From a virus: a stretch of 28,825 nucleotides of DNA. Positions 275 through 26,296 of the stretch are shown here, piece by piece. A program made the translations under genes and the position numbers. Where the stretch lies: the IMG/VR virus record IMGVR_UViG_3300025872_000232, positions 1 through 28,825 of that record; one strand, 5' to 3'. The notes under the pieces were generated by a model. The model was not told where the DNA came from. It ran no database searches and worked only from the letters and a program-made list of their open reading frames with translations. Every line of letters starts with the position of its first letter. Position 1 is the first letter of the stretch.

Positions 275-283
275 CCGTGTCAA
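255..283 (-). promoter_or_regulatory. sigma-70-type promoter (TTGACA-17-TATGAT)
   Basis: On the minus strand TTGACA (283-278) and TATGAT (260-255) are separated by exactly 17 bp. That is a full -35 consensus and a 5/6 match at -10. It overlaps the last codons of the structural gene ending at 280 and points at the 60-residue gene starting at 229. Early promoters of cyanomyoviruses are host sigma-70-like, so this fits an early transcript. Inferred from sequence only. Confidence 0.75.
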
Positions 284-987: not shown

Positions 988-1646
988 TATTCATCAACCT
1001 CCGTAACTAATCTCTCCACATCTTTTCTTGTTGCAAAGATATGATAGAAACAATGTATTGGCATTCCACCTTTTGATTGTAGATGTATTTTATCAGCATC
1101 AATTCTTTTCACTATAATATCTTGATGAGATCCTATTGAAGTGAGAGAAACAGTGATCGTTGTTTCATCAACCAACCCACTCCAGTATTCGGGAAGTTCA
1201 ATATAGTTTCTGTTTAGAACTTTTCCACGAACATATACACCATTCTCTGGACCTTCTAGACAAGTATGAACTAACTTCTTTCCAGGTTTTGTTGGATGAT
1301 CTATCACAAAGTTTTTGATAGATGCTTGAAGAACTTGTGTACGAACGATCTTTGCTTCAATATACTTTGATTTTAACAAAGTATCAACACGAACAAACTC
1401 CTGAAATCTAGCGTATAACTTACACCACAGTGAATATAGTGGTGATTGAGCATCGGAGTTAAATGTCCTACCAACCATCAATGTTGCATCAACAGATCCA
1501 AACTCCTGAGCACCTCCTGTTTGCATTGGTCCTTCAACGAATGCAGAACCATTGATTTTTCCTGGACCAACACCCATCATAGATGGAAGTCCTGCTCCAA
1601 CCATTAACTGTCCACCTACAGCAATATCATCTTGAGTAAATGCCAT
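987..1646 (-). CDS. fibre-like virion structural protein B (paralogue of A)
   Basis: A 219-residue protein. Residues 111-211 align with the same positions of the downstream gene: FVIDHPTKPG, CLEGPENGVYVRGK, IELPEYW, VSLTSIG, RKDV. The N-terminal 110 residues are unrelated: a Gly/Met-rich start (VGAGLPSMMGVGPGK), then a helical stretch (YSLWCKLYARFQEFVRVDTLLK). A strong Shine-Dalgarno (TTAGGAGGTATAAATG) fixes the start. Together the two genes look like a duplication in which a shared C-terminal cap carries different N-terminal parts. Likely a minor virion protein at the tail tip or fibres; the exact location is inferred from context only. Confidence 0.7.
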   Translation of the reverse strand: MAFTQDDIAVGGQLMVGAGLPSMMGVGPGKINGSAFVEGPMQTGGAQEFGSVDATLMVGRTFNSDAQSPLYSLWCKLYARFQEFVRVDTLLKSKYIEAKIVRTQVLQASIKNFVIDHPTKPGKKLVHTCLEGPENGVYVRGKVLNRNYIELPEYWSGLVDETTITVSLTSIGSHQDIIVKRIDADKIHLQSKGGMPIHCFYHIFATRKDVERLVTEVDE

Positions 1647-1655
1647 TTATACCTC

Positions 1656-2315
1656 CTAAAATATGTTTTGATTGACTTGGAAGTTTCTACCTCCAGTTTT
1701 TCCATCTTTATTTGCTACTGCATCAGTAACTCCCTTTACAATAGAACTATAAATTTTCATGCAACTATTTGCAGAGATTTGCATAGTTCCTGGAGTTGCT
1801 AACCTTAAGTTAGTCTTTGCATTGACAGATACTTTTTTACTGTCAAGTTCTATATTTTCTGTTGCCTTCAATCGGATGTTTCCTTTAGATCCACCCTCAC
1901 CGACAGCAATCAGTTCAATGTCTGTTCCTTGAAGACGAAGTTTTCCATCTTGAGCAATAATACAAATATTACCATGCCAAGAATGAATAAACAAGGTATC
2001 TTCAGTTTCCGTGCGATCTTCTCCTGCTTCTATTGAAATCCTTCCTGGAGCAGTGAGTTGAGTACATCCTTTTCTTTGCCCATCTTTATCTAGAGCAATA
2101 GAGTGTCTTCCATCAGATGCCTGCAAAAGAATGTCTGCAGTACAATCTCCCATTTTATGAACATGTCCAAAGTTAATGGAACCATGATCATTACCATAAC
2201 GAAGACCTGTGTAGTTCTTCTTAGAAGTATTATTCTCCGGAAGAGATCCAGTAGCATAAGCAGAACTTCTAGGAGCTCCTACTCTTGTATTAATTCTATT
2301 TTGGGAAGTTGCCAT
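1656..2315 (-). CDS. beta-helical spike-like protein (VgrG/gp5 C-terminal type)
   Basis: A 219-residue protein. From residue 145 it shows an 8-residue periodicity with alternating hydrophobics: GNIRLKAT, ENIELDSK, KVSVNAKT, NLRLATPG, TMQISANS, CMKIYSS. This is the pattern of the triple-stranded beta-helix of T4 gp5 C-terminus and VgrG spikes. Before that come short strands with Gly turns (AQDGKLRLQGTDIELIA at about 121-137). There is no OB fold or lysozyme region. It sits two genes downstream of the gp5-like hub, so I infer that it is the membrane-piercing needle encoded as a separate chain. It could instead be another beta-helical baseplate ornament. Confidence 0.6.
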   Translation of the reverse strand: MATSQNRINTRVGAPRSSAYATGSLPENNTSKKNYTGLRYGNDHGSINFGHVHKMGDCTADILLQASDGRHSIALDKDGQRKGCTQLTAPGRISIEAGEDRTETEDTLFIHSWHGNICIIAQDGKLRLQGTDIELIAVGEGGSKGNIRLKATENIELDSKKVSVNAKTNLRLATPGTMQISANSCMKIYSSIVKGVTDAVANKDGKTGGRNFQVNQNIF

Positions 2316-2349
2316 TCCTATTAATCAATATAATCTATTTAATGAGGTT

Positions 2350-5300
2350 TTAGATAAGATTTTCTGGAGTACCTGGAATATTAAGTTTGGGATTATTTGA
2401 ACTGAGTTCAGTGTCCGTACCAGATCTCTCAATAGCACTTGCAGCAGTAGTGACTTGAGCATTAATGCTATCCTGGAGAGTGTCATAAACTTGAACAAGT
2501 TCACCTGGAGTCTCATAGAATCCAGCATATCTGACTCCATCTTTATAGAATACAGACCCATAGTATGCTCTACCATCAACATATCCATTTTGCTTAAGAC
2601 CAACAAGATCTGTAACTTGAATCAGTTTTTCTGGAACAGTTACTATCGGATCTCTCACAACCTCAAACTGAGGTCTGAATGAAGCATTAATGCCAGTAGG
2701 AACTGCCCCAGGTGGTGATACCATTTGTATCTGAGGATACTCAGTAAATCCAAGACCAGGATTTAAAACTTTTACTTCTTTAATCTTTCCGAAAGAATCG
2801 CAAACATAATCTAACACAGCACCGTTACTTGGGGTGATTTGTATTTGATCAACTCCACAGTTGTAATTAATGCCAGGATTTTCTACAATAACTTCTCTGA
2901 GTCTTAATCCTGCAGGATAAGAACCTTCTCCTGATGGTGGAAGATATCCATTTCCAGGATCTTGAATAACAACTTTTTTAACTACTCCTTTACCACTCAA
3001 CTTTTTGGGGCAAGGTGGAGGAATTAATATCGCAGAAATACCCATTGGATTTGACGACCAAGGAGTTTTATTTTGATCTCTTATTGTTACATCTTTACGA
3101 ATAACAACTCCAAATCCAGTTGGATTATTGTTGAAAACATCAGTTCTATCTTTTATATTTTCAACTTCAACTATAACATCATAGGTTCCTGCGCTGATAT
3201 TAACATTTTCAAAAGTTGGTGTATCTTTAAATGAAGTAGTGGTTAGTACTTTTGTTCCTCCAATATAAAGAGATCCTATATTATCTGCCTGAAATGCTAT
3301 TCTATATTGCCCACTTTCAGGAAACTTAACACCTTTCCAAGTATATTTTTTTGTTCCGTTGATTTTTGGATTAGCAACATCAAAAGGTGGTAGATAGGGA
3401 GATACCGAATGATTATTCATAAACTCTCCCCATCTACTATCAGAGTAGTGGAAAAGAGATGGGCCCTCATAAGTAATCCCATCCTTCACAGTTCCACTAC
3501 TCAAATATCCACCAGTGATTGATGTTGATGTTGATGTTGTACTCGTACTTTTAGTGTCGGTTATAATGAGTTTAATATTCTCATCAGTTCCATCAGCATC
3601 AAGTAGACCAAGTTTATTATTAGAAACTCTTGGAGTTCCTGCACCTAAATTTGCACCTATTATTTCAATAGGACCATAAGTTTTACCCGCAGTAAACTTA
3701 CCAGATTTTTTAATAGTCTCTTTTTGAGGAATAGCGGATTCTTGTATGCGTAATATATTTGGATCATTTGTGGTGCCGGCGGGAAAAGATGGAACAGATC
3801 TTTTAAAACTAATCTTATTACCATCACTAGGCAAAATAACTTCTTTTGCAGCAAGACCAGCAATATAAGGGGCATCATCAACTTCCATGACAAATTCAAT
3901 TTCACCAGACCCTGATCCAGTAACTTCAAGGTAATACTTACCATTTTTTTGAATGAATTTTGGTTTGATATTACCTTGATTGACACTAGTAGAAGTAGAA
4001 GATATACCAGCAACTTGCCAATCTTTTGTCCCGAATATTTTTTGATCTATTGTGTTTTCGGTAACGATAGGTGTATTATAAACTTCGGCAGTAATTGTGT
4101 GTCTTCCTTTTGTAATAAATGTTTTAACCAGTTTGGGATCATCTACATTAAAACCATCAAGTTTTGATACCTCATTATTGTCAATTAAAATTCTTCCAGT
4201 ATTATCTCTGGTCCCCTTAACACCATAGAATCCATCATAAGGTATATCAATATCCCATGATGTTGAATAAGTTGCACCAGCTTTATCGCTACCGGGAGTA
4301 TCCAATGGTTTAACTGGAGAAATTGCATAGCGATTCATAAATCTACTCCATCCAGGAGCATCAAAAGTCCTAGTCGAAGTCGTTGTACTATTCTTAGTTG
4401 TTGGTGCGGCATCAAATCTATAAACTAGATCATAGGTGCTTCTACCACTGTTCTTTGCTTTTCTCTTGTTGGAACTCGTAAACGTTCCTACAGCTGCTGC
4501 GATTTGAATATCATCATTATCATTTCCAGATTTAATATAATCCGCAAAGATTTTATTGGAAGTCCCAATACCATTTTCTTTTGCTTTAGTTCCTCCTTTT
4601 ATTAATCCCTGCTCAACTGAACTAAACTTAGTAGAATCTTCTTTTGCAACTACAATGTAGTTAATATTTGGTTTTATTTGTACCTTATCTTTTCTAGTTT
4701 TCTTATTTTTATCCACTCCATATAAAGTAAATGTATGAGATCCATCAACTGCAGTAAAAACAAATGAAAGATCTCTAAAAGCTCCCTGACCATAAACAGA
4801 AAACTCAACTTCTTTTTTCTCTAGCGTAGGAGTTGCAACATTTGTGGTGACGATTTCTGTTATTGTTCTTGGTCCAGGGAACTTTACTGGATACCATTTT
4901 TCTGTTTTTGTGGGGAATCTAGTTGTCCATATTGGATTGTTTGGACATCTACCTTCTTGTGCAGGTACTGGTTCTTGAGGAACAGTAGGTTCAGGGGCAT
5001 CTATCGTAACAGAGATTCCCATTGGATTTTCATTCCAAGACTTTGGAGATATAACCTCCTGAGTTGTTGTAGCAACAGACACCTCCACAGCAAGAGCCAT
5101 TGGATTGATATTTTTACCCTCAGCAAATCCAAATTTTCCCCCGGGTATTTGCTCTAGGTCTGCGATTATTTTATATTTTCCAGCCTTAAAAAATCTAGTC
5201 TCTGTCGTCTTTCCGGTGCCTTTACTAGGAGAACTAAATCCTTTCTTAGATATTATAATATCTCCTTTAGATCCGCTGAAAGTAAGTTTAACATTATCAT

Positions 5301-7053
5301 CAACTTCAATATCTATTGAATAACTTCCATCAAATGGAAAATCAATATTGTCCCAAACAATCCTATGAGTCCCTGCATATGGATTATCCTTCAGTTGAAC
5401 ACTAGTATCAAATGGACATACACCTTGTTCATTTATAAATCCACCTCTACCATAAACATTAGTTCTCCAAAGTTTTCTGTTTGCCTTATTAATATAATCT
5501 ACAGTATTAAAAATTTTCTTTGTTTGGATAGTGGAGTTTGATGCTGTAGAAGATGTAGTATCTACAGACCCTTCTATGAAAAAAGTTAAGTCATAAGTAC
5601 TTCTACCACTATTCTTTGCAGTCCTCTTATTCTTAGACTGGAATTTACCAGAACCTGCAGTAATCTGTATATCATCATTATCATTTGCAGAACCAATATG
5701 ATCTGCAAATATTTTATTTGAAGATCCTATTCCACCTTCCTTATTTTTCTTACCATTCTGTATGATACCCTGTTCAGTTTCTGCAAATGTGGAGACTGCA
5801 GCAACTTTATATTTTGTATTTGGTCTTACTTTAACCGTTTCATTTCTACTTTCTTTACTTTTTTTATTACCTAACAATACAAAGGAATGTGACCCATCCT
5901 CAGAGACAAAGGAAAACTTTAATTTCTCAGTTCTTTTACCTTCACCATAAACAGTAAAACTAACATCAACTAATCCGGATGGCAATTGAGAGGTAACTTT
6001 TTCTTTGATAGGAGCATTTAATAAATCAACACGAATATTATGGATACCCTCTTTGATTGTTTTTCTAATATCATTTACTGGACCTTTAAATCCACCAAGA
6101 TCAAAAAGTTTTTCATTGTCAATATACAATTGTGCTATGTTATCACACAATCCCCTAAAAATATATTCTCCTGTTGTTGGAAATTCTTCATTCCATTCCA
6201 TCGTAAATAATGTTGCTGCATAATCACTTCCCTTAACATTGGAAGGTGGAACTGGGGATACTGCATATGAGTTCATAAACTCGGACCAAGAATCACCAAA
6301 ACTTACTTTATAAGCTTGAGTGGTTGTTACTCGGGGATCACTTGCTGTTATTTTAGTTGGTCTGTTTCTTCTTGTACTCCAAAAAGGTTTCCTTTCAGCA
6401 GCTCTTACTCCCCTTTCATACTTTTCAATTTCAGTTCTTATAGGATCTATACCAATCTTTGTATATGCGTTCGGTTCCCATGGACCCAAATCTTCTCCAT
6501 TTGGGCCATACCTTCTTCCAAATCCAGCATCATTTGGATCGCAAATTTCATATTCCTCAAAATCCGTTTCATCAGTATAAGTTTCAAATCCATCAACAAC
6601 TTCACCAATAACTGCTGTTAAAACTGACCCACTTCCATAGTTGCAGTTATCATTAGCAGATACTTGTGGTGGATATTGATACCCATACCCCCCACTAACA
6701 AGATCAACTGCCAATAAAGACCCATCTATACCAATAACAGGATTGCCAACAGCACCAATGCCACCCCCACCATAAATCTGAATAGATGGTGGGCCACATT
6801 CCTTTTTCTGATTTAATCCATCACATTCTTGATTGGTTTCTAACTCTTGAGGAGTAAGTGAGTTAACTTCGTTTATATTAATATATCTTAAAACTTTATT
6901 CCCATCCTTAAATAAAAATGTAGTTCCAGGATTTTCCTTAGCATACTCATTTGCATCACAAATGGTTACATCATTGACATACCCAAGCTTTGGATCTATA
7001 TATCCAACTCTTATATCATTCTTTGAAGGTTGTCCGAATAGGTTACTTGCCAT
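2350..7053 (-). CDS. giant multidomain structural protein with PA14-like repeats
   Basis: A 1567-residue protein built from recurring modules. Three copies of a PA14/lectin-like beta-sandwich begin near residues 252, 900 and 1207. Each has (W)xxFMNxxxxSPxxP, a W-x-x-x-x-(F/I)P-x-x-(G)xY stretch and D-N-x-x-x-(L/I)-x-I-(D/G). A related, more diverged copy starts near 545. A second module occurs twice (about 383-488 and 768-874): DGSH(S/T)F, then a GIG-(S/T)-SNKIFAD block, NDNDDIQI, and the identical NSGRSTYDL. Two copies of a W-x-x-NPMGIS strand also occur. The C-terminus (about 1480-1567) has an aromatic VDGRAYYGSVFYKDGVRYAG patch. PA14-type modules bind glycans in other proteins, so host-surface recognition or baseplate decoration is likely, by inference. 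No clear Shine-Dalgarno. Confidence 0.7.
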   Translation of the reverse strand: MASNLFGQPSKNDIRVGYIDPKLGYVNDVTICDANEYAKENPGTTFLFKDGNKVLRYININEVNSLTPQELETNQECDGLNQKKECGPPSIQIYGGGGIGAVGNPVIGIDGSLLAVDLVSGGYGYQYPPQVSANDNCNYGSGSVLTAVIGEVVDGFETYTDETDFEEYEICDPNDAGFGRRYGPNGEDLGPWEPNAYTKIGIDPIRTEIEKYERGVRAAERKPFWSTRRNRPTKITASDPRVTTTQAYKVSFGDSWSEFMNSYAVSPVPPSNVKGSDYAATLFTMEWNEEFPTTGEYIFRGLCDNIAQLYIDNEKLFDLGGFKGPVNDIRKTIKEGIHNIRVDLLNAPIKEKVTSQLPSGLVDVSFTVYGEGKRTEKLKFSFVSEDGSHSFVLLGNKKSKESRNETVKVRPNTKYKVAAVSTFAETEQGIIQNGKKNKEGGIGSSNKIFADHIGSANDNDDIQITAGSGKFQSKNKRTAKNSGRSTYDLTFFIEGSVDTTSSTASNSTIQTKKIFNTVDYINKANRKLWRTNVYGRGGFINEQGVCPFDTSVQLKDNPYAGTHRIVWDNIDFPFDGSYSIDIEVDDNVKLTFSGSKGDIIISKKGFSSPSKGTGKTTETRFFKAGKYKIIADLEQIPGGKFGFAEGKNINPMALAVEVSVATTTQEVISPKSWNENPMGISVTIDAPEPTVPQEPVPAQEGRCPNNPIWTTRFPTKTEKWYPVKFPGPRTITEIVTTNVATPTLEKKEVEFSVYGQGAFRDLSFVFTAVDGSHTFTLYGVDKNKKTRKDKVQIKPNINYIVVAKEDSTKFSSVEQGLIKGGTKAKENGIGTSNKIFADYIKSGNDNDDIQIAAAVGTFTSSNKRKAKNSGRSTYDLVYRFDAAPTTKNSTTTSTRTFDAPGWSRFMNRYAISPVKPLDTPGSDKAGATYSTSWDIDIPYDGFYGVKGTRDNTGRILIDNNEVSKLDGFNVDDPKLVKTFITKGRHTITAEVYNTPIVTENTIDQKIFGTKDWQVAGISSTSTSVNQGNIKPKFIQKNGKYYLEVTGSGSGEIEFVMEVDDAPYIAGLAAKEVILPSDGNKISFKRSVPSFPAGTTNDPNILRIQESAIPQKETIKKSGKFTAGKTYGPIEIIGANLGAGTPRVSNNKLGLLDADGTDENIKLIITDTKSTSTTSTSTSITGGYLSSGTVKDGITYEGPSLFHYSDSRWGEFMNNHSVSPYLPPFDVANPKINGTKKYTWKGVKFPESGQYRIAFQADNIGSLYIGGTKVLTTTSFKDTPTFENVNISAGTYDVIVEVENIKDRTDVFNNNPTGFGVVIRKDVTIRDQNKTPWSSNPMGISAILIPPPCPKKLSGKGVVKKVVIQDPGNGYLPPSGEGSYPAGLRLREVIVENPGINYNCGVDQIQITPSNGAVLDYVCDSFGKIKEVKVLNPGLGFTEYPQIQMVSPPGAVPTGINASFRPQFEVVRDPIVTVPEKLIQVTDLVGLKQNGYVDGRAYYGSVFYKDGVRYAGFYETPGELVQVYDTLQDSINAQVTTAASAIERSGTDTELSSNNPKLNIPGTPENLI

Positions 7054-7094
7054 CAGAATATATTAAATAATCTCTCTACAAAGAAGCATATGTA

Positions 7095-7102
7095 TATTTA
7101 TT
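7095..7102 (-). promoter_or_regulatory. possible late promoter (AATAAATA)
   Basis: The minus strand reads AATAAATA, 7 of 8 matches to the T4 late consensus TATAAATA, about 42 bp upstream of the giant structural gene and in the short gap after the gp5-like stop. In so AT-rich a genome a 7/8 match can arise by chance. Confidence 0.3.
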
Positions 7103-7106
7103 GAGG

Positions 7107-8882
7107 TTATGCAATATTAGAATTTGCTCCGACTGTAAATCCGGAAACAGTACTGGTAGGATTATTAAAATTAAGATCCACTGTAGTCTTGGCTGGTTGT
7201 GCAAAATCAACTCCCGGAGAGAAAGCAATCTCGGTTGCAGATTGAACATTCTTAGCGACTGAACTATAATTTGGAGTCTGCGATTCTTCTCCAGCACCAC
7301 CACCCTTATGCAAGGTATAATAATCCGAAACAGGACAACTTGGTTTCAAATCACACCCAAAAACATTCAACTTAATATTTTCAAAACTCAATGCAGAAGT
7401 AATGCTGCTGGTTATAGAAGAAACACTTGCAGAAATGTCAGACAAGTTTGAACTAACTTGGGCGAGTTGAGATTGGATATCTGACAAGAATTTGTTGATG
7501 ATATCCAGTATATCATCAATACCTTGATTTATATCATTTTGATTTGTCGCAACAAGATCTCCGGTCAGTTTTTCAACAGAACACATATCAACCTTCGGTG
7601 CAGCATTATCTGGAGAAGGTGTTTTAGTATCCAAAATATTATTCAATGCGCTTTGTATTTGACCACACAGATTATTAGTTATCTTATTGAAAATGCAAGT
7701 GATCAACTCAGTGATCGTCTCTTTAACATCAAGAAACTGATATCTTTGATTTGGATACATTGAGTCCACTGTTGGTGCAATAGATTTATTAATCTGCTTC
7801 AATATAAACTCAAGTATCTTATCAAAAACAATTTTCATATACTTCGCAATCTGACACGCAAAGTCTGCAATCAATCTTTGAATATCAGATAAAATCTGAG
7901 ATGCTGCGTCAATATAACTTTGAGCTGCTTGTAAGATCTTATCTATTTCTTTAGTCAGATTATCTAATAATACCTGAATAGCTTTTAAAGCAGATGATGT
8001 AATATCACAAGGACTCAACATTATTCTCTTTTTCAGATACAAATCATTTCTTTTTGTATCTGCATTAGTTTGAATGTGATTATCATCAGGGTTTTCAACT
8101 GTTGCTCCAGGTTTTGATGGTGCAGATGGTGAGTTTGCTTCTTGGCATCTTGCTTTAATACCATCGGCAACCTTACTTTGAATGAAGCGACTTCTCTCAG
8201 TTCCTGTTAAACCTCTTGCCTGTGCTTCAGCAACTGCGCTTTGTTGATCGGCAAACTGTTGAGAATTTAATGATTTATCAGCACGAAGACCAAACTCATT
8301 AACAGCAACTCCTGGTGGAGGGGGAGCACACTCAGCAGACTGAACAGGATCTTTTGGTTTTGTTACGCCGATTCTATCATCAGGAACTGTTGGTTTTGCC
8401 GATCCAACTGGTGGATCTTTTCCTTCAGCAAAACCACTGGTCGCTAAACTTCCAGGAGTTTCATTTGTAACTTGTTGAGTCTTGGTCCAACTTGTTGCTA
8501 GTTGTGTCTGGGCATTATTACCAAGAACTCCCATAATAACGGGAACTTGTTGATCCTGCCCATCAAGAAAGAATCCAAATACAAAGTTTCCTTGACGGAG
8601 ATTTGGAGTCTGAGAAGAACCTGTTTGTCCACCACCTGCGGTGATAGGATACATCACCTGAGCCCATGGAAGTTGATCAGAAGGGATTACCTTCTCTCCT
8701 TGATCGTGTAATCCTACAATCCTTACCTTATATCTTCTTCCCCATCCAGGTATTTGCTCAGCAGACTCGTGCTTTCCTGGAAGAGAATTATCTCTCCAAG
8801 TGGAATCATCAGCGATCTGACCGACCCACCAGTTAAAATGTACCCCCAGAAACCCTGGATTAAAAAGAGATCCGCCTTCCAT
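7107..8882 (-). CDS. 5: baseplate hub, gp5-type OB-fold protein without lysozyme
   Basis: A 591-residue protein. Residues 1-125 resemble the N-terminal OB fold of T4 gp5: WWVGQI near the start, YKVRIVGLHD, LPWAQVMYPIT, then FVFGFFLDGQDQQVPVIMGVLG. After a Pro/Ala-rich linker (130-270), residues about 285-500 are long amphipathic helices with heptad-like spacing (SALKAIQVLLDNLTKEID; FLSDIQSQLAQVSSNLSDI). They probably make a trimeric coiled coil, and several Cys are present. T4 gp5 (575 aa) has an internal T4-type lysozyme and a beta-helix; I find neither here. The gene lies six bases after a small gene and downstream of the gp27-like hub gene, matching the gp27-gp5 partnership. No strong ribosome binding site. 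Confidence 0.72.
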   Translation of the reverse strand: MEGGSLFNPGFLGVHFNWWVGQIADDSTWRDNSLPGKHESAEQIPGWGRRYKVRIVGLHDQGEKVIPSDQLPWAQVMYPITAGGGQTGSSQTPNLRQGNFVFGFFLDGQDQQVPVIMGVLGNNAQTQLATSWTKTQQVTNETPGSLATSGFAEGKDPPVGSAKPTVPDDRIGVTKPKDPVQSAECAPPPPGVAVNEFGLRADKSLNSQQFADQQSAVAEAQARGLTGTERSRFIQSKVADGIKARCQEANSPSAPSKPGATVENPDDNHIQTNADTKRNDLYLKKRIMLSPCDITSSALKAIQVLLDNLTKEIDKILQAAQSYIDAASQILSDIQRLIADFACQIAKYMKIVFDKILEFILKQINKSIAPTVDSMYPNQRYQFLDVKETITELITCIFNKITNNLCGQIQSALNNILDTKTPSPDNAAPKVDMCSVEKLTGDLVATNQNDINQGIDDILDIINKFLSDIQSQLAQVSSNLSDISASVSSITSSITSALSFENIKLNVFGCDLKPSCPVSDYYTLHKGGGAGEESQTPNYSSVAKNVQSATEIAFSPGVDFAQPAKTTVDLNFNNPTSTVSGFTVGANSNIA

Positions 8883-8888
8883 TAATTA

Positions 8889-9107
8889 TCAATCATCATA
8901 AACTCTACATTCAAGTGCATCTGGATGTTCATCACAGTACATTTCAAATCCCGTAGGATCATGATCAGTATCTGGATGATTAATTTGATACTTTTCTAGA
9001 TGGTCTAACTCATCTTGAAGATGTCTGCGGCGCTGGCCATTAGTTGTGGGATTATCAATCTCATCTCTATCATCATTAATGTGCTGTTGAAGTGTTCTGT
9101 CGCTCAT
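8889..9107 (-). CDS. small acidic protein between gp27-like and gp5
   Basis: Seventy-two residues, very rich in Asp, His, Glu and Gln, with no hydrophobic segment. Residues 1-45 are likely helical (QQHINDDRDEIDNP ... RRHLQDELDHLEKY). The C-terminal part has two Cys (MYCDEHPDALECRVYDD). Its ATG overlaps the TGA of the upstream gp27-like gene (ATGA), so it is translationally coupled to it. The position between two hub genes suggests a small baseplate or assembly factor, but I do not recognise a family with known function. Confidence 0.6.
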   Translation of the reverse strand: MSDRTLQQHINDDRDEIDNPTTNGQRRRHLQDELDHLEKYQINHPDTDHDPTGFEMYCDEHPDALECRVYDD

Positions 9108-10444
9108 AATGGTATCTTGCCAGAAGTGTGATTTCCAGTTCTACCAAAAGAATCTCTTACTAAGTTAAGTTTAGTATAAGTTTCTTTAGTAGAAATATAG
9201 TGACATAAATCTGCTATAATATATATCCCACCATAATCCTTGTTTACTTCTTCATCAGCAGTTGAAAGTTCTTTAGCATCTATAAAAACAACATCCCCAG
9301 CGTGCAGTGAAAAGTCTCCTGGAATTGTAACAGTACTTTTTGCGGAGAAGAGTTGATTGTATCTCATTATTGATTGATTCAAAATATTCTTATACTCAAA
9401 GTTTTCCTCTTTAGATTTCCCTATCTGTTGCTTTGTATTCCCCGAAGGCAAAGTTCCCTTATCAAGAAAGTAATAAGTTGTTCTAGAAAACTCTTGATTC
9501 TTACCATCTCGGTTAAACTCAGGATTTAGAGTAGGTAACTCCTTTCCCGCCAACTTTAGATCTTTCTCTTTCTCTTTAGCATTTGGAGTAACAACTTCAT
9601 AGTAACAAGTGAATGGATCAAATAAAACTGTGCGTGTAGAAAAAGCACCCATCTTAAGTTTTTCTTGAACATCAACACGATTATCTTTTGAATATTCAAG
9701 TGCCTTTACATCATATCCGGATGGAATATTATCCCCCCTGGAGTCTGGTGTTTGGTTAAAAGTTATAGACTTCTTCTTTTCTTGACTCAATAAAGAATCA
9801 ATTGACTTAAACTTAAATCCTTCTGATGTTTCAAAGAAGAAAAACCCTGCGGTATTACCCTTTGCATTCTGAGTGTTTGGAACTGCTTTTTTAGACAACC
9901 AGTTCATTGCATAATATGGTTTTCTATTATTTCCTACAAAATTATAGTTGTTTGATGTTTCCTCCACATCAGTTTTCTTTTCAGTTCCAAGATATTTTTT
10001 ATCGGTTAATATCCTCTTAATATGATCAGATATCTTTCCATCAAATCTACTATTCAATCTAACTTTCTCATTTAAAATAAATTCTTTTGATACTAGATCA
10101 AGTTGAACCATTGATTTAGTAGTATCTTCAGAAAGTGGGGTAACTTTGTTAACATACAGAACCAAGTCTAATGTTGAGTTATTATTATCTTTAAACTTAA
10201 CATAAACTTTTTCCTGACCAACAATAGGCAATCCAGCAAGTGCTGTTTTATTATCAATAGCAGTTCCAGAATCAGCAAAAGTTACAGTTGCTTTGATAGT
10301 GTCTTGAAGAATGCTTTCATAATACATCAAACGAATAGTTCCCCCAGTAACACTTACCGTCTTACTTGGATCTTTATTAGAAACTATATCCAGTCTTTCT
10401 ATAAAAGATGTTTCGGCACTTTTTGAGATTATTGGATTTGCCAT
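9104..10444 (-). CDS. 27: baseplate hub protein, gp27-like
   Basis: A 446-residue protein. Its place beside the gp5-type OB protein and after the tape-measure genes is that expected of gp27. Sequence features agree with the gp27/gpD hub fold: an N-terminal beta domain (TVSVTGGTIRLMYYESILQDTIKATVTFADSG), a KVYVKFKDNNN strand, and a C-terminal barrel with TVTIPGDFSLHAGDVVFID, YGGIYIIADLCHYIS and YTKLNLVRDSFGR. The last strands match the usual end of gp27/VgrG/gpD hub proteins. T4 gp27 is 391 aa, so this is somewhat longer, with a charged loop near 300-340. The trimer would seat on gp5 and join the hub to the tube. Assignment rests on fold-type pattern and synteny. Confidence 0.62.
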   Translation of the reverse strand: MANPIISKSAETSFIERLDIVSNKDPSKTVSVTGGTIRLMYYESILQDTIKATVTFADSGTAIDNKTALAGLPIVGQEKVYVKFKDNNNSTLDLVLYVNKVTPLSEDTTKSMVQLDLVSKEFILNEKVRLNSRFDGKISDHIKRILTDKKYLGTEKKTDVEETSNNYNFVGNNRKPYYAMNWLSKKAVPNTQNAKGNTAGFFFFETSEGFKFKSIDSLLSQEKKKSITFNQTPDSRGDNIPSGYDVKALEYSKDNRVDVQEKLKMGAFSTRTVLFDPFTCYYEVVTPNAKEKEKDLKLAGKELPTLNPEFNRDGKNQEFSRTTYYFLDKGTLPSGNTKQQIGKSKEENFEYKNILNQSIMRYNQLFSAKSTVTIPGDFSLHAGDVVFIDAKELSTADEEVNKDYGGIYIIADLCHYISTKETYTKLNLVRDSFGRTGNHTSGKIPL

Positions 10445-10466
10445 TTTTTATTACCTGATACTTTAT

Positions 10467-13400
10467 TTAACTACCAATCACCAGAGACTCAAATGGATCT
10501 TCTCCACCACCCCTCATTACCAGGGAAGATCCTAATGAAGAATAACTAGTATTGCCAGTATCACTAACTTGCATTTGTGGCACAACTACAATTTGTTCCG
10601 ACCCAAATTCATAGTACGCAAAGTTTCTCAATACATTAATAGCCTGATCATATTTTGCATTATTCAATGCTCCTAAAAATCCAGGAAAAGTTTTTTCAAC
10701 AGCAGCAGTAGAATCTGCATCAATGACAAATTCCTTTCCTTTTTCACCAAGCATTGCCATATGAGGACGACCTAATGTTAGACCTCCCTTCTCAAACTTT
10801 ACCACACCACCACCAGTACCACCCATAAACTGCTTTAAAGTTGCTCTTACTTTTGCAGATCCTGCATAATCTCTAGCGCCAATGGCACCAGATCCACCCC
10901 ATTGAGCTCCAGGGACATCAAATGCAAGTCCAGAATAGTGAAGAGATCCGGTAGCATGTCCACCAACTGGACCATATCCTTTAAATTCAGTTACTTGTAT
11001 TCCTTTAGATCTGAAAAAATTAAATGCCCTTTCTGCAGTTCCTCTATCTTTAAACCCAATATGATCATGGTAGTTGCTAGTTGTTCCATGCCCTGCTCTA
11101 TCAAATGTTCCAAATGGCGTATTAGGATCTCCGGTAATATACTGAGCAATAGAACCACCCACACCACCTCTATTCATTCCCACATTACCAAGCTCTCCGG
11201 ATGTTGGAATTTTATATCCCCCACCAGTTCTAAACTTTTCAAGACTTGCAAGATACTCTCTATGTATTCTAGGTCCTTCTGTATTTTGAATATATTCTGC
11301 AGGTCTTTCCCACTTTCTCATCCACCAATCCGCTGCTTGTTGCGGTGAAGAAAAATTAGTAGTCAAATATAGTTGTCCAGGTTCACCAGATTCTCTTAAT
11401 GCATAATCAATTTGTGCTTTCCAATTTGATGCATAGTCAGGAACTGCTCTTAAGAAGTTGGATTTTCTGGGTTCACTTGAATATTGAAATAATCCAACAC
11501 CAGGACCACCAGATTGAGAAACACCTGGTCTAAATGAACTTTCTCTGGATATATTTGCCATGATACCAAGAGCATGAGTATCATCCATTTTTTTTGAAAG
11601 TAGATACTTGTAAATATCCCCTTGCAACCCTTCAGGCGAAAAATCTCCTGCTGTTCCTCCACCCGTACCAGATTCTGGTTGAGATTTTCCTTGGTCTTGT
11701 TCGCTTTTTTTCAACCTCAAATTTTCTTGTATCTCTCTTAAGGTCTTTTGTGCATTGGATTCTGTCGCATCTTTAAATGAAGCAGCAACCCAATCACTAA
11801 TATCTCCACCTTGAGAAATGGCATCTAATGTTTTTGGATCAACAAATCCACCTTCAGCAAATGCAGCAAGTCCACCTTTTAATTTTCCATCGTCTATTCC
11901 CTTTGCAACCAACATATTAATTCCCAAACCAACATTTTTATAATCCTGTTGAGTTGGTTTTTGCCCCAAAAGAATTTTAGAAGTGATAGCAAGTATGGGA
12001 CCAAAATAATCACTCTTACCAAGTTCTTTTCCAGCGTTTTCAATGACTCCAAATGGATTCATAAAACCAGGAAGTTTTGGTTTTGGAAATATTCCAAATA
12101 TTTTTTCTTCTCCACCAACATCAGCACCAGGTTCTATCTGAACATCTCCTGGTTTTTTTGGACTGAGTTTTCTTTTATATTTTCCTTTTTTACCAACAGA
12201 AATAGTTCTTTTTACTCCTCCCGTTGCTTTTCCACCTCTGGTAACACCACCCCCTCTCATACGTTTGGGTTTATCTTCAAGTCCAAGTTTCCTAAGAAGA
12301 GCATCGGAACCTACAGAAGTTGCCATAGATGCTCCAGTTGCTAATACACCACCACCAAGTAAAGTAGCGATAGCAGCTGGAGTTAAAGTTCCTCCACTAA
12401 ACACTGCTTCAGCAACAGCAGCTGCTCCAGTTGCACCAAAAACCCAATTAAAGACTGCCATACTTAATCCGGCAGTTACGATTGTTCTAGATGCGTCTTT
12501 ATATCTGCCTTCTTTTAATAAATTGATAACCTCAAAAGCTGCAGGAACTAATGCAATAAATCCAAAACTTTTTCCAAGGACACCCATAAATTTACTACTT
12601 CCAGACGGAAGTTTTGGAAGACTTGGAAGTTTTGGAAATCTAAAACCACCTCTTCCACCTTGACCTTGTGTTATTCTTGCTCCACCAAATGGCAATCTAA
12701 AACCACCTCTTCCACCTTGACCTTGTGTTATTGTTGGTCTCTCTCTAAAAGGATTTCGTATATCAATACCACCAGCACGACCACCTCCACTTGTTGTTAC
12801 TCTAGGTCTTCCTCCAGTTCCCGGTCTGGTACTTGCACCGCCACCACCTCTTCTTCCACCACCTCCTCCACCAGCAGAACTAGCAGCAATCATTCCTGCA
12901 ATGATTGCAAGATTTAGAAACTTATTTAATAAACTAGAAAGTTGATCAAACTGCTTTACTCCACTATCACCAAAAAGATTCTTTACAAATCCACGAGTGG
13001 CATCATATGCTTTGTATCCCCAATCAACAAATGTTACAAGACCATTTAAAAGTTTTCCGCCGAGATCTAATACAAAATCAGTTGCTTTCCCTAAAAACTT
13101 AACAATGGGAATTATTTTTGGCAAATGATCTACTAATCTTACAGCAAAATAACCAAGAATAATATTACCAATAAAGTTTTTTATCCAATCCAAAAATCCC
13201 ATTCTAGGAGCACTTGGTGTTTTTACTTTACCGGATTCTGCTTTTGGTTTTGTCTCTAACTTTTCTTCTATCTTTTCACGTCGTTTAGAACTTTCTTGTT
13301 TTTTTGCTTCATTTAACTTTTTCTTTTCAGAGGCTAGAGTTCCCTTCAATATACTATCAATCTCAATTACCTTAACCTTAATAACTCCAATATTTTTTAC

Positions 13401-13511
13401 AGAGTTTTCACTTAAAACAAGAGAAGAAGATCCTTTAACGGCAATCTTATTGGTCTTTACGATTGCTCCTCCTTTTGATGATGGTAAAAACTTTTGAGTG
13501 TTGATTGCCAT
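10467..13511 (-). CDS. tape-measure-like protein with tail lysozyme and M15-like peptidase
   Basis: A 1014-residue protein. Residues 60-90 are a charged helix; 105-165 and 195-212 are hydrophobic (GNIILGYFAVRLVDHLPKIIPIVKF); 213-300 are Gly/Arg-rich with a short tandem repeat; 330-410 hydrophobic Ala/Gly-rich. Residues about 628-760 resemble phage tail lysozyme: GIMANISRESSF with probable catalytic Glu657, GVGLFQYS, then ADWWMRKWE. Residues about 785-895 resemble an M15-type peptidase: NYHDHIGF and S-x-x-H-x-x-G-x-A-x-D realised as SLHYSGLAFD (His858, Asp865). The C-terminus carries MAMLGEKGKEFVIDADS, a tape-measure hallmark. I infer a tail protein released on infection to open peptidoglycan. 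Start fixed by AGGTGATATAAATG. Confidence 0.72.
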   Translation of the reverse strand: MAINTQKFLPSSKGGAIVKTNKIAVKGSSSLVLSENSVKNIGVIKVKVIEIDSILKGTLASEKKKLNEAKKQESSKRREKIEEKLETKPKAESGKVKTPSAPRMGFLDWIKNFIGNIILGYFAVRLVDHLPKIIPIVKFLGKATDFVLDLGGKLLNGLVTFVDWGYKAYDATRGFVKNLFGDSGVKQFDQLSSLLNKFLNLAIIAGMIAASSAGGGGGGRRGGGGASTRPGTGGRPRVTTSGGGRAGGIDIRNPFRERPTITQGQGGRGGFRLPFGGARITQGQGGRGGFRFPKLPSLPKLPSGSSKFMGVLGKSFGFIALVPAAFEVINLLKEGRYKDASRTIVTAGLSMAVFNWVFGATGAAAVAEAVFSGGTLTPAAIATLLGGGVLATGASMATSVGSDALLRKLGLEDKPKRMRGGGVTRGGKATGGVKRTISVGKKGKYKRKLSPKKPGDVQIEPGADVGGEEKIFGIFPKPKLPGFMNPFGVIENAGKELGKSDYFGPILAITSKILLGQKPTQQDYKNVGLGINMLVAKGIDDGKLKGGLAAFAEGGFVDPKTLDAISQGGDISDWVAASFKDATESNAQKTLREIQENLRLKKSEQDQGKSQPESGTGGGTAGDFSPEGLQGDIYKYLLSKKMDDTHALGIMANISRESSFRPGVSQSGGPGVGLFQYSSEPRKSNFLRAVPDYASNWKAQIDYALRESGEPGQLYLTTNFSSPQQAADWWMRKWERPAEYIQNTEGPRIHREYLASLEKFRTGGGYKIPTSGELGNVGMNRGGVGGSIAQYITGDPNTPFGTFDRAGHGTTSNYHDHIGFKDRGTAERAFNFFRSKGIQVTEFKGYGPVGGHATGSLHYSGLAFDVPGAQWGGSGAIGARDYAGSAKVRATLKQFMGGTGGGVVKFEKGGLTLGRPHMAMLGEKGKEFVIDADSTAAVEKTFPGFLGALNNAKYDQAINVLRNFAYYEFGSEQIVVVPQMQVSDTGNTSYSSLGSSLVMRGGGEDPFESLVIGS
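12637..12732 (-). repeat. 39-bp direct repeat, 57-bp period, in frame
   Basis: An identical 39-bp block occurs at 12637-12675 and 12694-12732. The 57-bp period is 19 codons and keeps the frame. The encoded unit is ITQGQGGRGGFR followed by LP or FP. It lies in the Gly-rich region of the lysozyme-bearing tape-measure-like protein. Confidence 0.9.
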
Positions 13512-13516
13512 TTATA

Positions 13517-16246
13517 TCACCTGTAAGAAGCCTGACTGTGACCATGAACACCCAAAATCCTTGTTTTATGATTAGATCCTGCAGTAGTGGCACTAAAATT
13601 TGGTGGTCTTGAAGATGATGTATTATTTCTTGGTTTTGTTGAAGTTACTGGAACTGGAGGTCCATAAACAACTCTAGGTCTTGATGCTGGAGGAGGGTTA
13701 ACGGGTCTCACTCCCGCATTTCTTGGACGAGCAAATCTTGATTGATATGGTCCAGATTGGTTTCTTCTTGGGTCATTAGGACCATATAGTGTAACTGAAG
13801 ACTTAGGTTTTGTTGGTGGTATTGGTTTTCCTTTATCATCAGTCGGAGTAAACCCACCACCCAAATCAATACCAGCACCACCAGGTCTTAAATTTCCCCA
13901 ACCAGTGTTTTGATTAATTCTCAAAACACCAGAAAGACCTTTAAACAGTGCTCCCCCAATATCTCCTTTTCTTAAATCAGATCTAGCACCTTTAAAATAA
14001 TCCGATGCAGGTCTATTTCCCTCATAAGTATCATTAGTTATTGCTCTTCCGTTTTTACCTACTCTAAAATTAAATTGACCAAGTGCAAGATTAGCAAGTT
14101 TATCTCCCATCAATCTATTATAATCAGCCTGCCCTAGTCCAACAGCACCTACTCCACCCTGCCCTCTCCTCTGAGCTTCAAGCATTGCGGGTCTGACATA
14201 TCTTCCCAAAGAACCTCTATCATCAATTCTAAATGCTTTTCCTAATGGTCCGGCAAGACCTTTAAGTGCATATTGAAGTCCTGTTATTTTTGCCCCAAAA
14301 TTTTTAACTCTTCCACCTGATATTCTTTCAACAAATTTTTCTGTTCCTTCCTCCTTTAATCCAAGAATAGCAAGTGGGTCAGCAAACAACCCCTTGTTTT
14401 GTATATCTTGAAATCTTTCTTTAACAGATCCAACAAAACCCTTATCTTTTTTTGGATCATAAAGACTCTTTATCCAGGCATCACTCTTTTCAAGATTTGA
14501 TTGTGTAGTTTTTGTTAAAGCTGCATCTGGTTTTAATTCACCAGATTTAATCAATGCATTTTCACGTTCTGTTCCATATTTTTCAAGAGATGCTAATGGA
14601 GAATCCAAAACACCAAATAAACCTTGCGGGAGTTTAACAAGATCTTGTGCCCGATTTGCTAATCCTTGGTAAGAGCGAGGATCTAAACCAGACCTGACTA
14701 CTCCTTGTGCCCGATTTGCTAATCCTTGGTAAGAGCGAGGATCTAAACCAGACCTGACTACTCCTTGTGCCCGATTTGCTAATCCACGCAGTTCCTCAAA
14801 TATACCACCACCTACACGACCAAAATTCATATTAGGTACAGAACCCCTAGATAAACCAGAAATTCCTCCAGAAAAAGATGTTCCCCAAGTTTCTGGTTTA
14901 TCTACATCATATCCAAGTTTATATTTTATAAACTGTTTAACATTATCTATTAATCCACCACCGGCAGCATAAATTTTACCACCCATAATTTTTGGTTGGT
15001 TTGTTCCACCACCAGCAGCATTCATTGCCTCCAGAGTATCAACTCCATACTTGGCAACAGCACCAGTAGACATAACAAACTCACCATCACTAAGCATCGC
15101 AGGGACTTTATCTACCCCCTTCTCACCGCTTACATATCCACTTGCAAGTCCGCCACTAAATCCCCCACCATTAAATCCATAAGATTTTGTTTGCCCTGTT
15201 TTTAATGCTGATATTTGTTCATCAATTTCAGATCCAACACCTTGCATTCTTTGAAAGATGTTTAGATTGGCTTTTTGTTGTTCTAATGCTCTTATCTTAT
15301 CTTCAGTTGATCCTGGTTTTGATTTGGTTTGCCGCTCCTGCTCATCAACAGTTCCCGGGAACATTGCAGGTATTGTAGCTCCAGCAGTAAACAATCCAAT
15401 AGCAGCAGCTGCTCTTGGATTCCTCGCAACAAATCTTAAAAGAGATGGTATTGCAACTTTACCAATGCGGAAAATAAATCCGCCTATCATTTTGGTCAAC
15501 CCTAAAGTCAATCTACCAAAAGAAGTTCCAAATAAAATATAAGAACCAATAAGTGCTGGCCACCAATCTTTTACAAAACGAATAATGGACTTAACTTTAC
15601 TTTCGTTTTTGGGATCACCTAACCACTCAACAAGTTTATAAACTATTCTTCCAAGTATAATATTTGTAAAGAATTCAATTACCCTATCAAGTAAAGATTT
15701 TACTGGCGCTATTATTTTTTCAGCAATTTTCTTTAAACCTTCAAATCTTTTTTCAAGTTTACTTTCAGCAAGTCCTCTTTTTTCCTGCTCCGCTTTTCTC
15801 CTATCATAAGCAGATGTATCGTCAGATATTTTCTTCTGCTGCCTTAAAGTTTCACTTATTGAGACTACAGCAGAAGTAATCGCAGAAATATTACTTTCTA
15901 AACTTTTAGATAATGGAGAAGCACTAATAGCAGTTCCGGGTAAAGATTTAGTTGCTGTTCCTAATATTTTTCCTTTTACACTGCCAATGGTAAATGACTT
16001 ACCAGATATCTTTTTTTTCTTTACTTCAAATCTACCTTGATCTTTTTTGCTTTTAACTCTCTTATATTCATTGGTTAGCAGTTCAACTTCTTCGGTAGGA
16101 ATGGTTGTTTTTGCCATCCTACCTTTAACCATTGCTTCTTTAAGAAGAGTCAGATAAGTTTCATAGTCTAGATCAAAAACATCATCAAGCCCAATAAGCC
16201 TTAAAATTCTAGAATCAATTTCTTCTTTTTGATTAGAAATGGGCAT
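13517..16246 (-). CDS. tape measure-like tail protein
   Basis: A 909-residue protein. Residues 115-190 are helical and charged (KKISDDTSAYDRRKAEQEKRGLAE). Residues 190-300 hold hydrophobic segments (FFTNIILGRIVYKLVEWLG; ALIGSYILFG), and 280-300 are Ala-rich. Residues about 365-415 carry the tape-measure signature GVDKVPAMLSDGEFVM followed by GVDTLEAMNAAGGG. Two exact copies of a 20-residue unit plus a partial third follow (about 485-535). The C-terminal 120 residues are Pro/Arg/Ser-rich and probably disordered. The first 15 codons overlap the end of the small ORF upstream, implying coupling. Position after gp26 matches T4 gene 29, which sets tail length; T4 gp29 is 590 aa, so homology is inferred from signature and synteny, not overall alignment. 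Confidence 0.68.
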   Translation of the reverse strand: MPISNQKEEIDSRILRLIGLDDVFDLDYETYLTLLKEAMVKGRMAKTTIPTEEVELLTNEYKRVKSKKDQGRFEVKKKKISGKSFTIGSVKGKILGTATKSLPGTAISASPLSKSLESNISAITSAVVSISETLRQQKKISDDTSAYDRRKAEQEKRGLAESKLEKRFEGLKKIAEKIIAPVKSLLDRVIEFFTNIILGRIVYKLVEWLGDPKNESKVKSIIRFVKDWWPALIGSYILFGTSFGRLTLGLTKMIGGFIFRIGKVAIPSLLRFVARNPRAAAAIGLFTAGATIPAMFPGTVDEQERQTKSKPGSTEDKIRALEQQKANLNIFQRMQGVGSEIDEQISALKTGQTKSYGFNGGGFSGGLASGYVSGEKGVDKVPAMLSDGEFVMSTGAVAKYGVDTLEAMNAAGGGTNQPKIMGGKIYAAGGGLIDNVKQFIKYKLGYDVDKPETWGTSFSGGISGLSRGSVPNMNFGRVGGGIFEELRGLANRAQGVVRSGLDPRSYQGLANRAQGVVRSGLDPRSYQGLANRAQDLVKLPQGLFGVLDSPLASLEKYGTERENALIKSGELKPDAALTKTTQSNLEKSDAWIKSLYDPKKDKGFVGSVKERFQDIQNKGLFADPLAILGLKEEGTEKFVERISGGRVKNFGAKITGLQYALKGLAGPLGKAFRIDDRGSLGRYVRPAMLEAQRRGQGGVGAVGLGQADYNRLMGDKLANLALGQFNFRVGKNGRAITNDTYEGNRPASDYFKGARSDLRKGDIGGALFKGLSGVLRINQNTGWGNLRPGGAGIDLGGGFTPTDDKGKPIPPTKPKSSVTLYGPNDPRRNQSGPYQSRFARPRNAGVRPVNPPPASRPRVVYGPPVPVTSTKPRNNTSSSRPPNFSATTAGSNHKTRILGVHGHSQASYR
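14641..14785 (-). repeat. 60-bp tandem repeat in tape-measure gene
   Basis: The blocks 14641-14700 and 14701-14760 are identical except for the first few bases. A third partial copy begins at 14761 and matches for about 25 bases. The unit is 20 codons, encoding GLANRAQGVVRSGLDPRSYQ, and keeps the frame. Exact identity at the DNA level, including synonymous positions, points to a recent duplication. Confidence 0.95.
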
Positions 16247-16421
16247 TGCTCATCTGTTGTTTTTGTTTTAACTCTTCATCTTCAAGATGCTGTTGTAATA
16301 AAGCAACATAGATGTCTCGTTCCCAAGGCATCATATTCTCAATCTCCGTTAATGAATATTTATGGTACTGCATCAAAGAAAAATTGAGACGAAAATAATT
16401 TTCAAGGTCCATATGGACCAT
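16233..16421 (-). CDS. tail-chaperone second ORF (lambda T / gp51-like), -1 frame to gp26
   Basis: Sixty-two residues if read from the ATG at 16421; a second ATG at 16412 has AGGA at better spacing. It contains YFRLNFSLMQYHKYSLTEIENMMPWERDIYVALL, then a Glu/Gln-rich helix. The PWERDIY-type motif is common in the short ORF that follows tail-assembly chaperone genes. The ORF lies in the -1 frame relative to gp26 and stays open upstream through the gp26 stop to a slippery TTTTTTC. It can therefore be made as a C-terminal extension of gp26 (about 303 residues, joined through Arg-Ile-Gly) as well as, or instead of, a free protein. Probable role: tape-measure chaperone during tail assembly. It overlaps the start of the tape-measure gene. 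Confidence 0.65.
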   Translation of the reverse strand: MVHMDLENYFRLNFSLMQYHKYSLTEIENMMPWERDIYVALLQQHLEDEELKQKQQMSNAHF

Positions 16422-16451
16422 TCCTATGCGAAAAAACTTGCTAAACCTTCC
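16406..16451 (-). promoter_or_regulatory. candidate programmed -1 ribosomal frameshift site
   Basis: Read on the minus strand: SD-like GGAAGG (16451-16446), 9 nt, then the heptamer T TTT TTC (16436-16430) in the correct phase relative to gp26. The gp26 stop TAG is two codons on (16426-16424). The dyad GGTCCATATGGACC (16419-16406) begins 10 nt after the heptamer. A -1 slip re-pairs both tRNAs perfectly or nearly so (TTT/TTT) and enters the downstream ORF without a stop. This is the arrangement of dnaX-type and tail-chaperone frameshift sites. The stem is short (5-7 bp). Confidence 0.68.
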
Positions 16452-17143
16452 AGCGTAACTTCACTTTCAATTTCAGTAACTGGGTTTCTAACTGTAATAG
16501 TGTGAGAAAGTTTAGGCATTGTTTCAAAGAACTTTTCAATATCTTTGAACTGTGAAGAGTTCATTGATTCTAGAAAATCACTAAGTTCCTTTTTAGAAAC
16601 ATCAGCAGCAGCCCAGACTTCATCTTCAGTAAAGATTTTATCAATACAGGATGCGATAAGATCAAACGATTGATCCATTGCATTCTTATCATTAAAATCA
16701 AAGTTACTCTTAATAAACTGATCTAGGGATGGATACTTCATTTCCATCATGATAGATTCATCTACCTTGATTCTCTTGCTATGTTCATCATTTTTTTGAA
16801 CTTGGATGTCATCAAGATTGATTTTTACAGGTACTTGAGTTTCACCATCATCTGGACAAATAATATTAACCTCAATCTCTTCCCCAACAGACTTACCACG
16901 AATATTTAAAAACAAATATTCAATATCAAAGGTGGGAAGTGCTTCTACTTTGATATTCTTGGTCAGAATACAGTTTTTAATAACTGTTTTAATTGCTGTT
17001 GTGATTTGCTTCGTATCTTCGCTTTCTAAAGCAATCACAAGAAGTTTTTCTTCCTTAACAAGAAAAGGTCTATATTGAATTGTTTCTCCTGTTGATGGCA
17101 ATTCAAGTTGATATGATGGTGTTGCAATCTTTGGTAAAGGCAT
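16424..17143 (-). CDS. 26: baseplate hub/tape-measure chaperone gp26
   Basis: A 239-residue protein of the T4 gp26 baseplate-hub family (208 aa in T4). Recognisable family segments are YQLELPSTGETIQYRPFLVK, EEKLLVIALESED, TFDIEYLFLNIRGKSVGEEIEV, FDLIASCIDKIF and, at the C-terminus, FFETMPKLSHTITVRNP with LEGLASFF. In T4, gp26 acts in hub assembly, and by analogy with lambda G/GT it is thought to chaperone the tape measure. The start has an AGGA five bases upstream, and a perfect TATAAATA late promoter lies at 17172-17179. It leads the long tail operon. Its last codons hold a slippery heptamer that could extend it into the next ORF. Confidence 0.85.
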   Translation of the reverse strand: MPLPKIATPSYQLELPSTGETIQYRPFLVKEEKLLVIALESEDTKQITTAIKTVIKNCILTKNIKVEALPTFDIEYLFLNIRGKSVGEEIEVNIICPDDGETQVPVKINLDDIQVQKNDEHSKRIKVDESIMMEMKYPSLDQFIKSNFDFNDKNAMDQSFDLIASCIDKIFTEDEVWAAADVSKKELSDFLESMNSSQFKDIEKFFETMPKLSHTITVRNPVTEIESEVTLEGLASFFA

Positions 17144-25413: not shown

Positions 25414-25421
25414 TATTTATT
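25414..25421 (-). promoter_or_regulatory. possible late promoter (AATAAATA)
   Basis: The minus strand reads AATAAATA (7/8 of the late consensus) across the thyX stop codon, 23 bases upstream of the 80-residue gene. The flanks make GAATAAATATTC, a small dyad. Low specificity in AT-rich DNA. Confidence 0.25.
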
Positions 25422-26133: not shown

Positions 26134-26296
26134 CATCGTCTCCTTCATAAAATACTTCGTCATAATCACTAATGTAAGGTGCTATTTCTTCGTAACTTGC
26201 TTTGTACGAATCAACATCAGAATAAACCTCTGACTTCAAACATTCTACCAGAGATTCAAGGTTTCTGACAATCAGCTTAAGCTTTTCTCTATCCAT
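26117..26296 (-). CDS. small acidic protein ahead of thyX
   Basis: Fifty-nine residues from the ATG at 26296; an in-frame TTG 18 bases upstream is less likely. MDREKLKLIVRNLESLVECLKSEVYSDV is a helix, followed by an acidic Asp/Tyr-rich end (ISDYDEVFYEGDDDGYPD). AGGG lies upstream of ATG. It is first in the unit driven by the promoter at 26320-26348, and its end overlaps thyX. I do not recognise a function; overlap suggests co-translation with thyX. Confidence 0.65.
   Translation of the reverse strand: MDREKLKLIVRNLESLVECLKSEVYSDVDSYKASYEEIAPYISDYDEVFYEGDDDGYPD

Follow-up and report, generated by a model that had tools for sequence, protein, structure and literature searches.

A T4-like cyanomyovirus tail hub module in which the tasks of T4 gp5 are probably divided among several genes

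In phage T4, gp5 is a single chain that joins an OB fold (residues 1-129), a lysozyme (174-339), and a beta-helix (389-575). Here, we analyzed the arrangement of these modules in a 28,825-base IMG/VR fragment (record IMGVR_UViG_3300025872_000232; hereafter the window, meaning the whole stretch at its full length). Its nucleotide and protein matches point to T4-like cyanomyoviruses (Kyanoviridae), the closest relatives being S-SM2, Bellamy, and SynMITS9220M01. On the minus strand, read 5′ to 3′, the window encodes gp26, gp51, T1 (909 amino acids, aa), T2 (1014 aa), a gp27-like protein (446 aa), a CP12-like protein, a 591-aa protein (gp5-N), a 1567-aa PA14 protein (gp5-C), a 219-aa protein, and two fibre-like proteins. 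This order is identical in S-SM2 and Bellamy, and the hub operon gp26-gp51-T1-T2-gp27-gp5 is conserved in most phages examined.

A first-pass annotation, made from the sequence, had placed the three gp5 modules on three separate genes. The open reading frames (ORFs) on which it relied (219, 591, 446, and 1014 aa) are present at the positions and lengths given. The modules are indeed separate; the number was too low by one, since the C-terminal half of gp5 is the 1567-aa PA14 protein, making four genes. We consider it likely that the locus is a tail hub/spike module with the T4 gp5 jobs divided among genes. It resembles T4 gp5 in the Gp5_OB N-terminus, in the place after the gp27-like gene, and in having a spike beta-helix in the module. 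In contrast to T4, the modules are spread over separate genes, T2 carries the lysozyme (of the PF18013 family), and gp5 itself is divided once more and has PA14 insertions. The divided gp5 arrangement is family-wide, not special to the window phage.

The divided gp5 and the beta-helix protein

The features of the gp5-derived genes and of the beta-helix gene are as follows.

7107..8882, minus strand: gp5-N, the 591-aa OB and helical-bundle protein (phrog_33098, E 4.8e-211; Gp5_OB; model)
8508..8837, minus strand: OB fold, residues 16-125 (Gp5_OB at 63-125; PDB profile match; VIA structural match)
7383..8015, minus strand: helical bundle, residues about 290-500, at the place of the lysozyme and beta-helix in T4 gp5 (model helices 294-498)
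2350..7053, minus strand: gp5-C, 1567 aa with a PA14-containing insert (ends match the C-terminal halves of fused gp5; PA14 E 5.3e-9)
6604..6813, minus strand: first conserved piece of gp5-C, residues 81-150 (S-SCSM1 gp5 445-512, E 5.5e-13; S-CAM9 gp5 497-567, E 2.8e-13)
3184..6363, minus strand: inserted PA14 repeat region, residues 231-1290 (Pfam PA14; region absent from SynMITS9220M01)
2425..2991, minus strand: last conserved piece of gp5-C, residues 1355-1543 (P-TIM68 gp5 693-850, E 2.7e-16; S-SCSM1 gp5 706-839, E 8.3e-16)
1656..2315, minus strand: 219-aa spike beta-helix protein, residues 32-200 matching spikes (VIA spike matches; DUF2345 E 5e-5; lag-8 period in 144-191)

An OB fold had been proposed to head the 591-residue protein, and three lines of evidence agree with it. 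Pfam Gp5_OB reaches 22.7 bits at residues 63-125 of the window protein (cutoff 25) and is found in 46/46 members of the family, with a best E of 3e-8. A PDB search with the family profile led to T4 gp5 residues 26-88. Furthermore, residues 15-120 of the model superpose on the OB domains of IF5A (Z 5.4-5.6, VIA). For the region after the OB fold, VIA gives helical-bundle matches only and Foldseek mainly helical bundles.

A profile search for lysozyme residues in this gp5-like protein had been suggested in the first-pass annotation, and none was detected. A cryptic lysozyme was rejected, as Pfam, the PDB profile, the model, and the ORF census all found none. Gp5_C and Gp5_trimer_C were not found by Pfam in the window protein, and the model is helical there; thus, by Pfam families and model, neither a hidden lysozyme nor a hidden beta-helix is seen. 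Across 62 gp5 proteins, the listed Pfam families include no hydrolase (one listing covers 25 of its 28 families). The window protein matches 431 phage records, and the relatives' records carry the annotation ‘baseplate hub and tail lysozyme’; for cyanophage gp5, the name ‘tail lysozyme’ seems mistaken. In Syn30, gp5 (L009:8941-11478) has a Gp5_trimer_C match (E 9e-5) after the OB and helical region, i.e., a fused beta-helix without lysozyme.

Both ends of the 1567-aa protein are collinear with the C-terminal half of unsplit gp5 in S-SCSM1, P-TIM68, B23, S-B43, and S-CAM9 (phmmer E 6e-6 to 9e-17, mostly 3e-10 to 1e-16), and gp5-C of SynMITS9220M01 is a bare 405 aa without PA14. Judged from these alignments, an ancestral gp5 has therefore evidently been cut into gp5-N and gp5-C, the latter enlarged by PA14 repeats. 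In a tree of the gp27-like protein (77 rows), a 99/96 branch separates all split forms from the unsplit ones; by this topology, gp5 was split once, in the clade of the window. Within the split clade, PA14-bearing and bare gp5-C interchange three or four times. The dismantling of gp5 is thus stepwise, from fused to split, and most of the split forms have PA14 repeats. Some loci first scored as having a long unsplit gp5 are actually split, with a longer helical region in gp5-N; Syn30 is the exception. PHROG labels the 1567-aa protein as virion structural/major head protein. This label was rejected because the ends of the protein are gp5-C.

The model of the 219-aa protein superposes on VgrG with Z 8.0 (147 residues, 2.5 Å) and 7.8, on a contractile injection system (CIS) spike with Z 6.3, and on T4 gp5 with Z 4.7 and a root mean square deviation of 14.2 (all VIA). 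Its predicted local distance difference test score (pLDDT) is about 80-94 over residues 61-190. Intra-chain hydrogen bonding is missing from most of residues 90-190, as would be expected for a triple-stranded helix modelled singly. The best matches being spike beta-helices, a non-helical fold is not indicated. The first-pass annotation had described an octapeptide-periodic beta-helix; the beta-helix agrees with the superpositions, while the period (lag 8) is limited to residues 144-191 (p about 0.001-0.005) and lacks significance across the entire protein. The protein had also been placed two genes downstream, a position that is correct only because the gp5-C/PA14 gene intervenes.

Alternatively, the 219-aa protein could be some other beta-structured baseplate or fibre part, the needle being gp5-C or a protein past the left edge of the window. 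Two fibre-like genes follow the 219-aa gene, the Foldseek E-values of the model are weak, and a single-chain model cannot reveal a trimeric helix. Against this, the best VIA matches are spikes of contractile systems, the protein has a Pfam match (E 5e-5) to DUF2345, the VgrG beta-helix family, and a gene of this type stands directly after gp5 in phages with fused gp5. We therefore regard the alternative as quite unlikely.

Wall hydrolases on the paralogous proteins T1 and T2

The features of the two long genes between gp51 and the gp27-like gene are as follows.

10467..13511, minus strand: T2, the 1014-aa tail-core protein with wall-hydrolase cassettes (Pfam, PHROG, paralogy with T1)
11283..11618, minus strand: Phage_lysozyme2 (PF18013) of T2, residues 632-743 (E 5.4e-18; conserved Glu in NISRESS)
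10827..11156, minus strand: M15-like second domain of T2, residues 786-895 (SxHxxGxAxD at 856-865, HDH upstream)
13517..16246, minus strand: T1, the 909-aa paralogue of T2 (tape-measure-type VPAMLSDGEFVMS motif; PHROG tape-measure matches at 288-438)

The lysozyme-like region assigned earlier to the 1014-residue protein is borne out by PF18013, which scores 66 bits against a curated cutoff of 28.2, and by the Glu of ES[S/G], which is retained by 85% or more of 55 relatives. PF18013 is the basis of the call, as a search of this region against PDB sequences gave no significant match. The family differs from PF00959, that of the T4 gp5 lysozyme; a T protein with PF00959 occurs in S-CREM2, S-N03, and S-CRM01. 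The M15-like region of T2 is conserved in 32 ORFs. The C-terminal ExxWH was not seen in it; SxHxxGxAxD is present with HDH upstream instead, and the domain is possibly a circularly permuted M15 peptidase. T1 and T2 are paralogous (blastp E 4e-5 in the window, 1e-44 in S-H9-1). At T1 residues 488-551 (window 14594-14785, minus strand), the 20-residue unit GLANRAQGVVRSGLDPRSYQ is repeated exactly in tandem; two copies are complete and a third is partial.

In the relatives, hydrolases were counted with locally built enzyme profiles, and the assignment of ORFs to T1/T2 rested on position or N-terminal domain and made no use of the enzyme. T1/T2 account for 108 hydrolase-bearing ORFs, and matches number 0/230 for OB, 0/149 for beta-helix, 0/225 for gp27-like, and 0/199 for gp5-C ORFs. 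Two matches scored as ‘other’ are contig-edge fragments upstream of gp27. On T1/T2 of named phages and IMG/VR relatives, Pfam recognizes at least 10 families: lysozyme2, GH24 (T4-type Phage_lysozyme), GH19, GH73, Amidase_2, SLT, Hydrolase_2, M15/VanY, M23, and C39. In the sampled cyanomyoviruses, all detected hydrolase domains, as far as profiles recognize them, thus sit on T1/T2 and none on spike or hub proteins.

Published proteomes of related phages support the presence of T1/T2 in virions. The S-SCSM1 virion contains T1 (GH73) and T2 (D-Ala-D-Ala carboxypeptidase) (PMC9602691), and in that of S-CREM2, two ‘endolysins’ are represented by 73 and 71 unique peptides (PMC10665884). The authors of both studies regarded these proteins as non-structural (PMC9602691, PMC10665884). 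Since the genes of both pairs lie between gp51 and gp27, i.e., are T1/T2, we consider them tail-core proteins by position.

In S-PM2 T1 (L246:3156-6659), lysozyme2 is preceded by an ADP-ribosyltransferase-like domain at the N-terminus (PF01129 E 1.3e-5, residues 66-218), a hint that protein delivery into the host may be a further role of T1. T4 keeps cargo of the ADP-ribosyltransferase type in its head. This domain, therefore, would also fit packaging of T1/T2 in the head and ejection with the DNA, as proposed for the two virion ‘endolysins’ by the S-CREM2 authors, who suggest a capsid location (PMC10665884). The T1/T2 genes, however, stand inside the conserved hub operon in most phages examined, and we consider a head location very unlikely.

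T1/T2 could also be hub-bound baseplate enzymes not placed along the tube, as in Anabaena phage A-1(L), whose hub protein gp15 has lysozyme, endoglucanase, and peptidase domains with activity (PMC10966104). The T2 gene does adjoin the gp27-like gene. In contrast, T2 and the gp27-like hub protein are distinct chains, and T2 is paralogous to T1, which has tape-measure-type motifs and PHROG tape-measure matches. A hub-bound position is thus unlikely in our view.

As the first-pass annotation had also suggested, the enzymes likely travel inside the tail tube, with T1/T2 as putative tape measures. The tape-measure-type signals are stronger in T1 than in T2. S-CREM2, with a tail of 418 nm, has the longest T1 and T2 among four phages compared; four points, one of them an outlier, do not amount to proof of a tape measure. 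In one study, the tape measure of this phage group was not identifiable (PMC7029224), and T1/T2 are candidates for it. ORF124 of S-CREM2 (2668 aa) was considered as the true tape measure and dropped, its composition being beta-rich, unlike a helical tape. Transmembrane segments as a common tape-measure sign were likewise discarded, being inconsistent across T1/T2.

Proposed mechanism and relation to known systems

In the arrangement that we favor, the 591-aa OB protein, as a trimer, would serve as an enzyme-free scaffold or adaptor on the gp27-like hub ring. The separate gp5-C/PA14 protein probably occupies the same place at the tip and probably binds cell-surface sugars, whereas the 219-aa protein would form a trimeric beta-helix acting as the piercing needle. 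T1/T2, with the wall cutters of T2 (lysozyme2 and M15-like peptidase), would be stored above the hub; once the needle has pierced the outer membrane, they would be released and bring their hydrolases to the wall. With the enzymes carried by T1/T2 and the spike trimer free of them, one hydrolase could be exchanged for an unrelated one to suit each host wall. A bolder proposal is tentative, and on balance we lean a little against it: the cyanomyovirus spike would be enzyme-free, and the two paralogues would be tape measures forming an exchangeable enzyme magazine, in many cases with a glycosidase on the first and a peptidase on its partner or the reverse, whose contents are delivered from inside the tube. 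In the clade of the window, gp5-C would then be a PA14 sugar-binding tail-tip collar, with adhesion and wall opening evolving independently of the needle.

Several observations weigh against the favored arrangement. The OB model is of low confidence (pLDDT about 50), and the 219-aa beta-helix was modelled as a monomer only. The M15-like region of T2 has no confident Pfam or PDB match, its weak PDB match being to hedgehog. Besides, 33/81 complete T1/T2 pairs have no match to the local enzyme profiles, the enzyme there being unrecognized or absent. Tail length follows T1 length with r 0.99 (four phages, one leverage point), but the nm per residue are not constant. The placement of T1/T2 in the tube lumen is an inference.

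Parts of this arrangement have precedents, as spikes free of enzymes and wall enzymes carried by other tail proteins have been described already (A-1(L), TM4, diffocin). In A-1(L), as in the window, the spike has an OB and a beta domain without lysozyme, and glycosidase and peptidase are on another tail protein. In contrast, A-1(L) has its enzymes as domains within the hub barrel protein, whereas those of the window are on T1/T2, apart from the gp27-like protein (PMC10966104). Mycobacteriophage TM4 and staphylococcal phiIPLA35 likewise embed a wall hydrolase in a long tail-core protein; these are siphophages of other hosts with a single tape protein, unlike the paralogous pair of a T4-like myophage with a Gram-negative host. 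Diffocin, with its hub-hydrolase, is an example of an enzyme on other tail proteins. Menderavirus (Stenotrophomonas) and Sinorhizobium phiM9 have T4-like OB proteins in which the T4-type lysozyme is lost or replaced. Their gp5 is one chain (OB, helices, and beta-helix in Menderavirus; OB and CHAP in phiM9), unlike the separate genes of the window. Klebsiella phage RaK2 gp078 also has rearranged gp5-type modules, but with beta-helix and lysozyme on one chain, the lysozyme being shifted to the C-terminus.

It could thus be argued that the arrangement is already known and only the ‘tail lysozyme’ label needs correcting. Tape measures with enzymes have been described before, and the S-SCSM1 and Sf-CH11 records already name T1/T2 lysozyme, carboxypeptidase, or tail lysozyme. 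We find this doubtful, though it deserves more weight than the other alternatives considered above, as the literature found gives no account of a split gp5, a PA14-bearing gp5-C, or enzymes exclusively on T1/T2. Judged by that literature, three points are new: the split gp5 with PA14, the restriction of many hydrolase families to one pair of paralogues among the cyanomyoviruses sampled, and our rereading of the two proteomes. The arrangement changes where to seek the determinants of host range and wall specificity of these abundant marine phages, and it accounts for the ‘endolysins’ in two published virion proteomes.

Neighbouring genes

The remaining members of the hub operon are as follows.

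9104..10444, minus strand: gp27-like hub protein, 446 aa (position and phrog_350, E 1.1e-99)
16233..16421, minus strand: gp51-like hub assembly catalyst (87% over 53 aa to S-SM2 gp51)
16424..17143, minus strand: gp26-like baseplate hub protein (PF12322, E 6.6e-76)

The identity of gp27 rests on gene position and phrog_350, as the family profile found no match in the PDB. The collection was scanned for gp27-like proteins with a 5-member alignment, a 14-member alignment being too divergent for the scan.

Between the gp27-like and gp5-N genes, a CP12-like 72-aa gene (window 8889-9107, minus strand; 43% over 72 aa to S-SM2 CP12) is lodged inside the tail hub module; CP12 is a regulator of carbon metabolism. 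Downstream of the beta-helix gene, two adjacent proteins (window 280-987 and 987-1646, minus strand) have a common C-terminal domain (phrog_17490) with a CLEGPE motif and are probably paralogous fibre or tip proteins; the two phrog_17490 proteins are conserved at this place in S-SM2 and Bellamy. Farther away, at window 25417-26169 (minus strand), a protein with a ThyX-like motif, RHRSFTYQEFSQRY, appears by eye to be a flavin-dependent thymidylate synthase.

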